Origin: Acidobacteriota bacterium
GTDB taxonomy: Bacteria; Acidobacteriota; Blastocatellia; RBC074
Assembly (NCBI GenBank): GCA_016196035.1
Contig: JACPYM010000086.1
Location: 1 to 64,000, forward strand
DNA: 64,000 nt
Direction: 5' to 3'
Shown piece after piece: positions 56,472-60,607 of the stretch. A program made the translations under genes and the position numbers. The notes below the pieces were generated by a model. It was not told the origin of the DNA. It saw only the letters and a list, made by a program, of their open reading frames with translations, and did no database searches. Position 1 is the stretch's first letter. The number at the start of each line of letters is the position of its first letter.

Positions 56472-56856
56472 ATGAACACACAGGTCGTACTCAATTTACC
56501 GGAAGACACATACCGGCGCGGCACAATTCGCGGCTTACGCCCGGCGTGATCTGACTGAGGTGATTGCCGCAACTCTTACTACAGCGTTGCCTTCGTTGGA
56601 GGCCATCAATCAACTCAACGGCATTGCCAAATTACCGGATCGGGAAGTGCTGGCGTTGACGAAACTGCGTATGGAACCGCAGGCGGATCGCCGTTTGAGC
56701 GCCTTGCTCGACCGGCAACAAGCCGGGGAACTGAATGACTGCGAGAGCGCAGAATTGGCGGCGCTGATGCGCATTTACGAAATCAGCCTGCTGAGCCAGT
56801 CGCAAGCCTTGGCCGAAGCCGTTGAACGCAAGTTGATCCCACCTTTGGAGCCATGA
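56472..56856 (+). pseudogene. Frameshifted gene for the HNH partner protein
   Basis: The ATG at 56472 opens MNTQVVLNLPEDTYRR and the frame then runs out at 56549. Dropping one G at 56520/56521 continues as AQFAAYARRDLTEVIAATL into the open frame that ends at 56856 (AEAVERKLIPPLEP), giving about 127 residues. The N-terminus looks like a ribbon-helix-helix-type start. The end overlaps the HNH start as ATGA. A sequencing error is the alternative to a true mutation. Confidence 0.7.
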
Positions 56857-57278
56857 GCAGCAAAATCCCGCAGGACGTCAAAGCGCGCGTTTGTGCTTCA
56901 GCCCAACATCGTTGCGGTTACTGCCTGGCCCAGCAACGTTACACACTGCTCGTCCTGGAAATCGAACATATCATTGCCAAAGCCAAAGGCGGCACGGAGG
57001 CTGAAGGGAATCTCTGGCTGGCCTGTCGTTTGTGCAATAACGCCAAAGGCATCTAAACGCACGCCCACGATCCGCTCACCAATAGGCGCGTCAAACTGTT
57101 TAACCCACGCACACAGCGTTGGAGCCGTCATTTCAACTGGAGCGAAGATGGAGTTGAGATCATTGGCCGGACGGCAAGCGGACGCGCCACCGTCGTAGCG
57201 TTGACCCTCAATAACGAAATCGCCTTGGTGGTGCGGCGGAACTGGGTGCGAGCCGGCTGGCATCCACCCGCAATGTAA
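56853..57278 (+). pseudogene. HNH endonuclease gene with an in-frame stop
   Basis: MSSKIPQDVKARVCASAQHRCGYCLAQ ... LEIEHIIAKAKGGTEAEGNLWLACRLCNNAKGI is a standard HNH nuclease (CxxC zinc knuckles, EHIIAKAKGG). TAA at codon 68 (57054-57056) stops it. The same frame then continues for 73 codons as family-like sequence (THAHDPLTNRRVKLFNPRTQ; HFNWSEDGVEIIGRTASGRA) to TAA at 57276-57278. The catalytic part is intact, so a short product is conceivable, but the gene looks inactivated by a point mutation. Confidence 0.75.
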
Positions 57279-57286
57279 TTTCCGCC

Positions 57287-57317
57287 TCACTCTTCCAGCA
57301 GCTTCCCCGCGAACAGC
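57287..57317. repeat. 31-bp direct repeat of the kinase gene's 3' end
   Basis: Positions 57287-57317 and 57611-57641 are identical over 31 bp (TCACTCTTCCAGCAGCTTCC...). The second copy is the stop codon and last codons of the kinase gene. The two copies flank the palindrome and its inserted MITE. Confidence 0.9.
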
Positions 57318-57325
57318 GGCTGTCT

Positions 57326-57607
57326 CTGGGTACGCATCGCTTCCAGCGTGCGGTCTCGGCAGCAGACAGATGGATGCTGAAAGCGAACCCTCCGGCATCC
57401 ATCTGTCTGCTGCTGAGACCGCACGCTGGAAGCGATGCGTGGCTTTGCACAAACCGTCCTGAAAAAGGCGGGCGATTTGTGCAAATGAAATTTCTGCACA
57501 AACCGCTGACTCGTATCACAATGCAAAACAAAAGGGCAAAGCCAACCGATTTGTGCAATTCCAATTCGATTTATGCCGGTTTGTGCAAAGCCGCGATGCG
57601 TACCCAG
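57326..57607. repeat. Palindromic element, interrupted by a MITE
   Basis: Inner arms 57333-57377 and 57395-57439 match over 44 of 45 positions with a 17-nt centre. The outermost right end (GCGATGCGTACCCAG) is displaced to 57593-57607 by the 152-bp insertion, and it complements CTGGGTACGCATCGC at 57326-57340. Without the insertion the element would be about 121 bp. It is related to the element at 11503-11608. Confidence 0.9.
57441..57592. mobile_element. 152-bp MITE-like element with 15-bp terminal inverted repeats
   Basis: The ends GGCTTTGCACAAACC (57441-57455) and GGTTTGTGCAAAGCC (57578-57592) are perfect inverted repeats. They are flanked by a 9-bp direct repeat, GCGATGCGT (57432-57440 and 57593-57601). 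The motif TTTGTGCA occurs five times in all, counting both orientations, two of them in the ends. There is no coding capacity and no transposase in the window, so it is non-autonomous. The empty site is confirmed by the other arm of the palindrome it sits in. Confidence 0.88.
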
Positions 57608-57610
57608 GGT

Positions 57611-60562
57611 TCACTCTTCCAGCAGCTTCCCCGCGAACAGCTTCTGCCCGCCCAGCGACGTGTGGAACGCATAAATCGTCAGCGCCAGAATTGCGCCAAC
57701 AACTACCATCGCTGAGCTTGTGTACCACGCGGAGAAATGCAGTGTGATGGGGAAAGACAGTAGGCCGCTGATAACCAGATAACAAGCAAAAGCAACATAA
57801 CCAAAGCGCAGCATAATGCTGACCATCAGGAGGTAGCTTAATCCAGCCAAAAGTGCGGACCTCAACGGGCTGTCTGAATTCGAAGATCCCAACCAGCAAC
57901 CAAACGCGACAAAAATTGCCGCAGCCAACCATTCTCGGCGTGTGATGATGCGCAACAAAAACAGGAATAACAGAATGAACAATGCCAACAGCAGCATTGA
58001 ACTCAGGTTGTTCATAAAACTTGAGGCAAGCAGGAAGCGTAAACCTGACCAGGAAGAACGCTCGGAATTTTCAGGTATGACTGCCTGCCGAAGATTGGCG
58101 AGCCGTTCAAGCAGCCAGAGTGTCTGCGTCACAATGCCGAAAAGAATGCCAATGAGCAGATCGCGGCTCACCAATGGATCACGCAGGCTACCGCTCAATA
58201 ACCGGCTCCACGAAACCAGCACCACCGGCCAATGCCGCCGCACGTAAGGTTCCAGCGCGATATAAAGCAACCAACTCAGGCTCGCCCAGAGGAGCGAACG
58301 GCTAACCCCCTGAAAGAAGAACCCATACAATTCACCTAAATGGGGCGCATGACTTGCAGCAAAAAGCCAGGTAAGCAACTGGACGGAGAAAATAAAAGCC
58401 GCCAGCCGGAACGCCCCGCGACGATCCCCGCGCCCCTGACGAACATTGTAGCGAACGAGCAGCAAGGCTCCGAATAGGACGAGTAGCAAGATGACGGGAA
58501 CAACGATATTGCTGATGTGTGTTTGAGGCGTCTGAATCCCTTGGGGTTTAGTCCAGGGCCAGATCAGATGAAAATAAACCGGTTTGCCACGATAAGCAGC
58601 AGCTTCTATGCGTAGCGGAATTTCCGGTTGAGCCGGATGAACTCCTGCCCAGGCGGCTCGCACATCACAAGCCGCCAGAGGCGTCCATTCCGGCTCGGTT
58701 GACGCAAAAGTTGTTGCATCAAGCCCAGCGGCAGCGAACAACGGCTTCCAATCAGGCGGCGGCGCTATGGCATGAGTTTGATCCAGTTGTGGCGGCACAG
58801 CTTCGAATCGGCTCAAGCGTCCTTGCAGATCCAGCCAAACGCTCACCATGCCCGGAAAGTCCCGCGGCGGATCGTAAGCAGTAATCCACCCGTCATCCCA
58901 CGATTGAAGGTACTGCGGACTTTGACGATACCAATAGACGATTACTGACCGCCCTTTTGTGACTTGATCTAATTGCTTTTCCGCCGGGATATTCCGATTA
59001 ACGTATGACAAATAATCGAAGTCCTGACCGAACCCAAAAGCGCTATCAGCCGGGCGCTCTGTATATCCAACCTGTCGCGTCAAATCACGTGCTTTGTGCG
59101 TTAGGTCATCAGGTGAATTTTGGCGCGAAAGCGAGAGCGTGGGAGACGCTTTATCACGCAAAAAAGCATTGACGACTAAGCCAACGATGATCGCCAGCAT
59201 ACACGCCACCGCATACATTGGCTTCATCCCCATCTTTGATCCCGCCGCCGCGACCATCTCCGGCGATGGCGTTTCGCCCAACGCCAGCGCCGCCGCCAGC
59301 GGATCACCACCCGGCAACGCATCAGCAACTTGGTTGGCCGACGCCAACCGTTTCGACGGGTCTTTCTCCAAACACCGCAAGATCACGCGCTCGACCAGCG
59401 GATCAATGTCCTTCACCCAGGACGACGGATTGGTCGGCGCACTGCTCTCGTGCATCTTCTGCAATTCAGCCAGCGAACCCGCTTCAAACACGCGCTTGCC
59501 CGTGAAGATTTCGTAGAGCACCAGGCCCAGCGCGTAGATGTCGCTCTTCGTCGTCACCTCTTTGCCCGCGAACTGTTCGGGCGACATATAGGCAGGCGTG
59601 CCCGCCATCACTTCGCTGCCTTTGATCTGTTCGGCGAATCCGGCCAGGCCGAAGTCGGTGATGCGGACGCGGCCTTTGCCATCCAGCATCACGTTCGCCG
59701 GTTTTAAATCGCGGTGCAGCACGCCCGCTTCGTGCGCGGCGGCAAGTCCGGCGCAGAGTTGATTCGCAATCTCGACGGCTTTGTCCGAGGGCAAGCGACC
59801 GATGCGGCGCAGCAACGACGACAGGTCTTCGCCATCCACATATTCCATTGAGAGAAAATGTAGATTGCCCGAAGAAGTCGTCACGTCGCCGATGTCGTGG
59901 ACGCGGCAGACGTTCGGATGCGTGACGCGGTGCGCCATCGAGACTTCGCTGTGAAAGCGCGCGAGCATCGTTTTGTCGTTTGAAAGCTTTTCGGTCAGGA
60001 ACTTGAGCGCGACCGGGTGGCCGAGTTTCAGATCGTCGGCGCGATAGACTTCGCCCATCCCGCCGCGTCCGAGCAAGCCGATGATGCGGTAGCGTTTGTT
60101 GAGCGTCGTGCCGGGTGTGAAGCGGGTCTTCTCGCTCGGCTCATTCGCCAGCAATCCGGCAGCCTGTTGAATCGCGCCGCCGATCAAATCGCCCGCCGCT
60201 GCCTGGTAAACCAGCAGCGATTCGACTTCGTGGCGCAGCCCGGCGTCGGCGCCGCAGGCTTTAGCCAGAAAGGCGGCACGTGCGGCTGGTTCAAGTTCCA
60301 ACGCCGATTGAAAGACTTGCTCAACCTGCTGCCAGCGGTCAGGCGACAATGGCATTTGCGAATTCAGCACGAGGTCAACTGCTGGAGCATGCGCCAAGCG
60401 CCGCGTGGCGTCTTCGTGAAACGAAAGCAGTGCTTCCGCGCCCAGACGCAATGGCAAATCATCGGCGCAGGATTGCTGCAACACAGCCGAGCGTGTAGCG
60501 GCATCGGCGGCGATGGCGGAGTTGACGAGGTCTTTGATCTGCTGCCAACGTTCTGGAGTCAT
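57611..60562 (-). CDS. Ser/Thr protein kinase with C-terminal multi-pass membrane domain
   Basis: 983 residues from the ATG at 60562, with AGGAGG 7 nt upstream. Two copies of a roughly 50-residue helical unit come first (about 2-50, TPERWQQIKDLVNSAI; about 73-125, SPDRWQQVEQVFQSAL). The kinase domain (about 158-430) has GRGGMGEV, K187, HRDLKPAN (283-290), DFG (303-305) and GTPAYMSPEQ, all canonical. A membrane helix near 460 leads to an extracytoplasmic part. At least six hydrophobic segments form the C-terminal third. It follows the ECF sigma gene, a common acidobacterial and planctomycete arrangement, so they probably share a signal path. Confidence 0.88.
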   Translation of the reverse strand: MTPERWQQIKDLVNSAIAADAATRSAVLQQSCADDLPLRLGAEALLSFHEDATRRLAHAPAVDLVLNSQMPLSPDRWQQVEQVFQSALELEPAARAAFLAKACGADAGLRHEVESLLVYQAAAGDLIGGAIQQAAGLLANEPSEKTRFTPGTTLNKRYRIIGLLGRGGMGEVYRADDLKLGHPVALKFLTEKLSNDKTMLARFHSEVSMAHRVTHPNVCRVHDIGDVTTSSGNLHFLSMEYVDGEDLSSLLRRIGRLPSDKAVEIANQLCAGLAAAHEAGVLHRDLKPANVMLDGKGRVRITDFGLAGFAEQIKGSEVMAGTPAYMSPEQFAGKEVTTKSDIYALGLVLYEIFTGKRVFEAGSLAELQKMHESSAPTNPSSWVKDIDPLVERVILRCLEKDPSKRLASANQVADALPGGDPLAAALALGETPSPEMVAAAGSKMGMKPMYAVACMLAIIVGLVVNAFLRDKASPTLSLSRQNSPDDLTHKARDLTRQVGYTERPADSAFGFGQDFDYLSYVNRNIPAEKQLDQVTKGRSVIVYWYRQSPQYLQSWDDGWITAYDPPRDFPGMVSVWLDLQGRLSRFEAVPPQLDQTHAIAPPPDWKPLFAAAGLDATTFASTEPEWTPLAACDVRAAWAGVHPAQPEIPLRIEAAAYRGKPVYFHLIWPWTKPQGIQTPQTHISNIVVPVILLLVLFGALLLVRYNVRQGRGDRRGAFRLAAFIFSVQLLTWLFAASHAPHLGELYGFFFQGVSRSLLWASLSWLLYIALEPYVRRHWPVVLVSWSRLLSGSLRDPLVSRDLLIGILFGIVTQTLWLLERLANLRQAVIPENSERSSWSGLRFLLASSFMNNLSSMLLLALFILLFLFLLRIITRREWLAAAIFVAFGCWLGSSNSDSPLRSALLAGLSYLLMVSIMLRFGYVAFACYLVISGLLSFPITLHFSAWYTSSAMVVVGAILALTIYAFHTSLGGQKLFAGKLLEE

Positions 60563-60607
60563 AGTGGTTCCTCCTGGATTAAAGTAAAACTGCCTACCGC
60601 CCACTGC

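Follow-up and report, generated by a model that had tools for sequence, protein, structure and literature searches.

The locus analyzed here raises the question of what brings a small mobile element to one exact position within a palindromic repeat. In the window (the whole 64,000-nucleotide stretch of contig C86), an earlier note had described a MITE nested inside a palindrome. On rechecking the sequence, all of the coordinates within 57432-57601 held, and the perfect inverted ends were present, at a length of 16 bp rather than the 15 bp originally given. GCGATGCGT indeed stands on both flanks, and exactly five TTTGTGCA motifs were counted, as described; the terminal repeats contain two of the five (Table 1). 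Removal of the 152 bp plus one 9-mer raises the complementarity of the palindrome arms from 22/52 to 51/52, as would be anticipated if the proposed empty site is correct. The element is a true MITE: it is short, contains no transposase gene, has perfect ends, and occurs elsewhere in the genome in copies with 9-bp duplications. A search for such copies had been recommended, and since those found have intact ends and different 9-bp duplications, the window element is not a product of chance. The other full copies are 160 to 174 bp long, and the window copy lacks AAATTGAG beside its right end. A 9-bp duplication around inverted ends indicates insertion by a DDE transposase with a 9-bp stagger, as for IS903-type elements.

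Table 1. Features of the MITE, its target duplication, and the host palindrome in the window
Feature	Position	Strand	Remarks
Kinase-gene 3'-end copy across the palindrome	57287..57322	.	36 bp, 94% to 57611-57646
Host palindromic repeat	57326..57440	.	Left arm, loop, and most of right arm
Target duplication, left copy	57432..57440	.	GCGATGCGT; within the palindrome's right arm
MITE, subfamily A1	57441..57592	.	152 bp; no gene
Left terminal inverted repeat	57441..57456	+	GGCTTTGCACAAACCG
TTTGTGCA motif 1	57446..57453	-	Inside left terminal repeat
TTTGTGCA motif 2	57476..57483	+	Candidate transposase-binding site; similar motifs in C107 IS end
TTTGTGCA motif 3	57495..57502	-	
TTTGTGCA motif 4	57550..57557	+	
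Right terminal inverted repeat	57577..57592	-	Identical to left on reverse strand
TTTGTGCA motif 5	57580..57587	+	Inside right terminal repeat
Target duplication, right copy	57593..57601	.	GCGATGCGT
Outer end of palindrome's right arm	57602..57610	.	ACCCAGGGT; severed by the insertion
3' end of 997-aa kinase gene	57611..57646	-	Other repeat copy; gene 57611-60604 (-)

The MITE had also been dated as younger than the palindrome, and the orthologous locus agrees. In a genome of the same genus (G001), the orthologous kinase gene (55% at the amino acid level) is followed by a diverged palindrome, with neither the MITE nor a second copy of the 9 bp. The G001 palindrome is bracketed by the same repeated gene tail as in the window, so the palindrome and the gene-tail repeat are both older than the MITE. 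This gene tail forms a 36-bp direct repeat (94%) around the window palindrome, a copy of the kinase 3' end that is also seen at the same-genus ortholog (L168); no flanking direct repeats were found at 37 other palindromes. A paralogous kinase (44% at the amino acid level; L171, C51) also has a palindrome directly past its stop codon, and palindromic repeats may act at transcript 3' ends. Elsewhere in the window, a short open reading frame with an HNH-like motif (CGYC...IEHI...CRLCN) lies at 56853-57056 (stop codon, 57054-57056), and similar-looking coding sequence seems to continue past this stop to about 57278.

The restored 121-nt window palindrome folds into a very stable hairpin (-73.8 kcal/mol; z = -19). 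In the genome (9.59 Mb in 139 contigs), 287 half-arms of the repeat were recognizable, compared with 0 for the control pattern; this represents ~150 copies, with cores of 96 to 118 bp. Among 97 relatives, the repeat is restricted to the taxonomic family of the host, bar one stray match with two mismatches. A target duplication of the ~120-bp palindrome itself was sought in 37 copies, and none was seen beyond chance. An Rfam scan of the palindrome returned only microRNA hairpin matches, far under their thresholds.

Subfamily A has seven copies in the genome. The inserted MITEs of group A1 (the window copy, C55, and C53) are 91 to 96% alike; group A2 (C40/C89, C113/C4, C18, which has lost one end, and C2) has about 72% identity to A1. 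Related ends are also found on a 987-bp element (C104; L081:999-1985) that carries a RibD-type gene (RibD_C domain) and no transposase. The nesting is not accidental: six of the seven MITEs (C86, C55, C53, C18, C40/C89, and C113/C4) and also the C104 element occupy one and the same 9-bp site in the palindromic repeat, at GGGT/ACGCANCGC/TTCC. The sole exception is C2, which lies outside the repeat; its target, GGT/ACGGCGCGG, has GGTACGNNNCG in common with the palindrome site. Both palindrome arms serve as insertion sites, the six MITEs are split 3:3 between the two orientations, and the duplications vary with the local arm sequence (GCGATGCGT, GCGGTGCGT, ACGCACCGC, and ACGCAGCGC). Contig ends interrupt two of these seven insertions (C40/C89 and C113/C4), with overlaps that lie inside the MITE, and the pairing of their ends rests on the 9-bp duplications rather than on unique overlap (ACGCACCGC with ACGCACCGC for C40/C89; ACGCAGCGT with ACGCAGCGC, a one-base mismatch, for C113/C4); whichever pairing is used, all four ends lie in palindromes. 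Because the repeat covers only ~0.2% of the genome, the probability by area that six of seven copies would lie in palindromes is about 3e-16, and the shared register is a further improbability. The host palindromes are no closer to one another (mean similarity, 0.78) than to other copies (0.775), and yet the A1 MITEs are 91 to 96% alike, which indicates that the insertions were independent. A search for MITE A in 57 relatives gave a single weak, chance-like match, and a search for palindrome-MITE junctions in nine relatives gave no more than the control pattern.

A sister element in the same genome, MITE B, behaves differently. It shares its first 13 bases, GGCTTTGCACAAA, with MITE A and is also present in seven copies (138 bp, with one copy of 199 bp), none of which is in a palindrome. 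Exact duplications flank five of them (ATTCCACGG, CAGCTTCGC, CATTGAGGG, CGCCCGCAA, and GGTGAGCGG), and two have none. The difference in palindrome location between A and B is significant by Fisher's exact test (P = 0.005; P = 0.0014 with the cargo element added to A). MITEs A and B thus share 13-bp ends and a genome, yet only A is site-specific, and the pair constitutes a natural experiment on DDE target choice.

The earlier note had also called for a full-length element with the same ends. The genome contains an intact 4,341-bp transposon (C10:127464-131804; L121:3465-7805) that has ends of the same type, perfect over 18 bp (GGCTTTGCACCAAAAGTC), and is flanked by 9-bp duplications that differ at one base (GCAAAAGCC/GCAAAGGCC); its match to what would be the parent of subfamily A itself is partial. 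The transposon encodes a 421-aa transposase with SWIM and DDE_Tnp_1 domains, a small putative DNA-binding protein, and a third product, an 816-aa Mrr-type nuclease/N6_N4 methylase fusion, and it is possibly a mobile restriction system. We found no intact transposase with ends clearly matching subfamily A. The closest is a broken insertion sequence (IS) remnant (C107:29319), the left 66 bp of which match MITE A at 80%; its frameshifted and truncated transposase is 79% identical to that of C10, the sequence to its left does not represent a palindrome site, and an IS200-like open reading frame follows it (judged by reading its translation).

SWIM-DDE relatives were found in Blastocatellia, other acidobacteria, Eremiobacterota, planctomycetes, a myxobacterial MAG, and archaeal MAGs, and those for which both ends were located have GGCTTTGC ends and exact 9-bp duplications. 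Transposons of the family measure 3.4 to 5.1 kb, cargo included; the cargo of the relatives comprises P63C proteins, a PemK/MazF-like gene, an IrrE-like protein, and DUF1828/DUF1829. The parents of the MITE are likely to be such cargo-bearing transposons with GGCTTTGC ends and a SWIM-finger DDE transposase. One-gene elements that have family ends and no transposase are represented by C104 (RibD_C) and by C77 of the acidobacterial genome MAG9 (L227; DUF3800). Family members also adjoin one another with one 9-bp duplication between them, as MITE-IS-MITE in MAG9 and in a planctomycete (L224, L155, and L223), as if new copies had re-used an old target. A literature search, confined to open-access papers and hence weak evidence of absence, found nothing on SWIM-finger IS5-like bacterial transposons.

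We consider it probable that the MITE derives from this SWIM/DDE family and that its target is chosen by sequence, over 12 to 21 bp, by one transposase lineage. The MITE is best explained as a nonautonomous derivative of a DDE family whose inverted repeats start with GGCTTTGC, whose target duplications measure 9 bp, and whose transposase (PF01609) has a SWIM zinc finger at its N terminus. Acting in trans, the transposase would bind the MITE ends, probably via the repeated TTTGTGCA motifs, and would insert the element through cuts staggered by 9 bp. The lineage serving subfamily A and the 987-bp cargo element would pick roughly CTGGGTACGCANCGCTTCCAG, in either orientation; with two such targets in each copy, the palindromic repeat provides about 290 of them in the genome. 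Within 764 kb that were sampled, ACGCANCGC was counted 13 times inside palindromes and 69 times elsewhere, whereas the 12-mer GGTACGCANCGC was counted 12 times inside and 3 times elsewhere. The 9-mer is thus about five times commoner outside palindromes and the 12-mer four times commoner inside, so that target choice must involve more than the 9-mer: if only the duplicated 9 bp were read, insertions would not be restricted to palindromes, and with a 12-bp target they would be. A local dyad centered on the duplication (CTGG-N3-CG-N3-CG-N3-CCAG) scored joint highest of 17 arm windows, and no excess of dyad symmetry was seen at other family sites; the dyad is only a hint of recognition by a dimer. 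IS903 prefers a dyad-symmetric 21-bp target.

Alternatively, the transposase might recognize structure: once a hairpin or cruciform is extruded, insertion would take place close to its stem base. The repeat does form a very stable hairpin, the insertion site is always near the stem base, and ISs that insert into REP hairpins are on record (PMC1525189). Hairpin recognition does not readily accommodate the C2 copy, which lies outside the repeat and yet shares GGTACGNNNCG, nor MITE B, which has the same ends and ignores hairpins, nor a register that is exact to the base even though the repeat cores vary in length. Taken together, the 9-mer and 12-mer counts, the site used by C2, and the fact that MITE B ignores hairpins favor sequence recognition; the data separate the two readings only in part, and we regard the structural one as unlikely. 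Far less credible is that insertion was random and that purifying selection spared only copies in noncoding repeats. Some palindromes do lie just outside genes, for example, directly past kinase stop codons, but selection would leave unexplained both the use of the same 9-bp register every time and the survival of MITE B elsewhere. It is equally improbable that a single MITE insertion was followed by copying of a palindrome-MITE composite around the genome: this would account for the one position shared by all of the palindrome insertions but not for the use of both arms and both orientations, for host palindromes that have diverged from each other as much as from empty copies, or for duplications that track the local arm sequence. 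Insertion into a dispensable hairpin repeat also allows a mobile element to increase in number with no damage to its host. Accessory genes, among them restriction-type and toxin-antitoxin-type genes, travel on the related transposons, so the sites at which this cargo inserts may be governed by the same rule.

Observations in MAG9 (G098) suggest that register-fixed target choice is not limited to the genome of the window. There, at five loci with six outer junctions in all, the junction is separated from GAGTCCGATAAC by exactly 8 bp plus the 9-bp duplication, and the elements concerned are MITEs, full transposons, and the DUF3800 cargo element, with duplicated 9-mers that differ. A matching second 9-mer was not seen at C26 right, C62, or C77. 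At outer junctions, a constant 17 bp separates GAGTCCGATAAC from the transposon end, and in some cases the motif forms an inverted pair (L223-L227 and L276-L278). We also considered GAGTCCGATAAC as an abundant independent repeat of MAG9 and rejected this, as 0.8 Mb contained only imperfect matches at near the control count. Tentatively, each lineage of the widespread SWIM-finger family may have come to use a different register-exact target in the course of evolution (in the present genome the palindrome arms, and in MAG9 the GAGTCCGATAAC spacing), a possibility that we rate below an even chance; if true, this would be a naturally retargeted, site-specific DDE transposon family.

The nearest characterized ISs are IS903-like IS5 elements. 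The IS903 subgroup shares with the present family the terminal GGCTTTG and the 9-bp target duplication (ends and duplication were checked in a Klebsiella IS903-like element: GGCTTTGTTGAATAAATC and ATACAGACG), and the DDE_Tnp_1 catalytic domains are 24 to 27% identical. Unlike IS903, the present family has ends that continue GC(A/C)C, a 421-aa transposase with a SWIM finger (versus about 307 aa), and a size of 3.4 to 5.1 kb with cargo (versus ~1 kb and transposase only). Against the NCBIfam IS5 model the transposase scored 111 bits, under the cutoff of 140, and we therefore call the family a relative of IS5 rather than a member. Its elements are distant relatives of the IS903 group.

Among ISs at fixed REP positions are IS3, IS110, and IS4 elements, while IS5 members are merely nearby (type 2) (PMC1525189). 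The type 1 REP-associated ISs (ISPsy8, ISPa11, ISPpu9/10, ISRm19, and ISRm22) resemble the present elements in using one fixed position in a palindromic repeat (PMC1525189). They differ in that they are autonomous, whereas the elements inserted here are MITEs and one cargo element, all of an IS903-like lineage; in that one A copy is elsewhere; and in that a REP is 20 to 40 bp long, compared with about 120 bp for the host repeat. Register-fixed choice beside a conserved motif, of the kind shown by the MAG9 relatives, is known from the IS1202 family, in which ISAjo2 enters dif or pdif sites at a distance of 5 bp from the XerC site (PMC10132070); the transposase family is a different one. MITEAba12-type bacterial MITEs (PMC6382973) are likewise short, gene-less, and IS derived, and by their description belong to a family other than that of the present MITE. 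Insertion into palindromic repeats is therefore already known for IS3, IS110, and IS4 elements, and what is new here is that the inserted elements belong to an IS903-like lineage and comprise MITEs and a cargo element.
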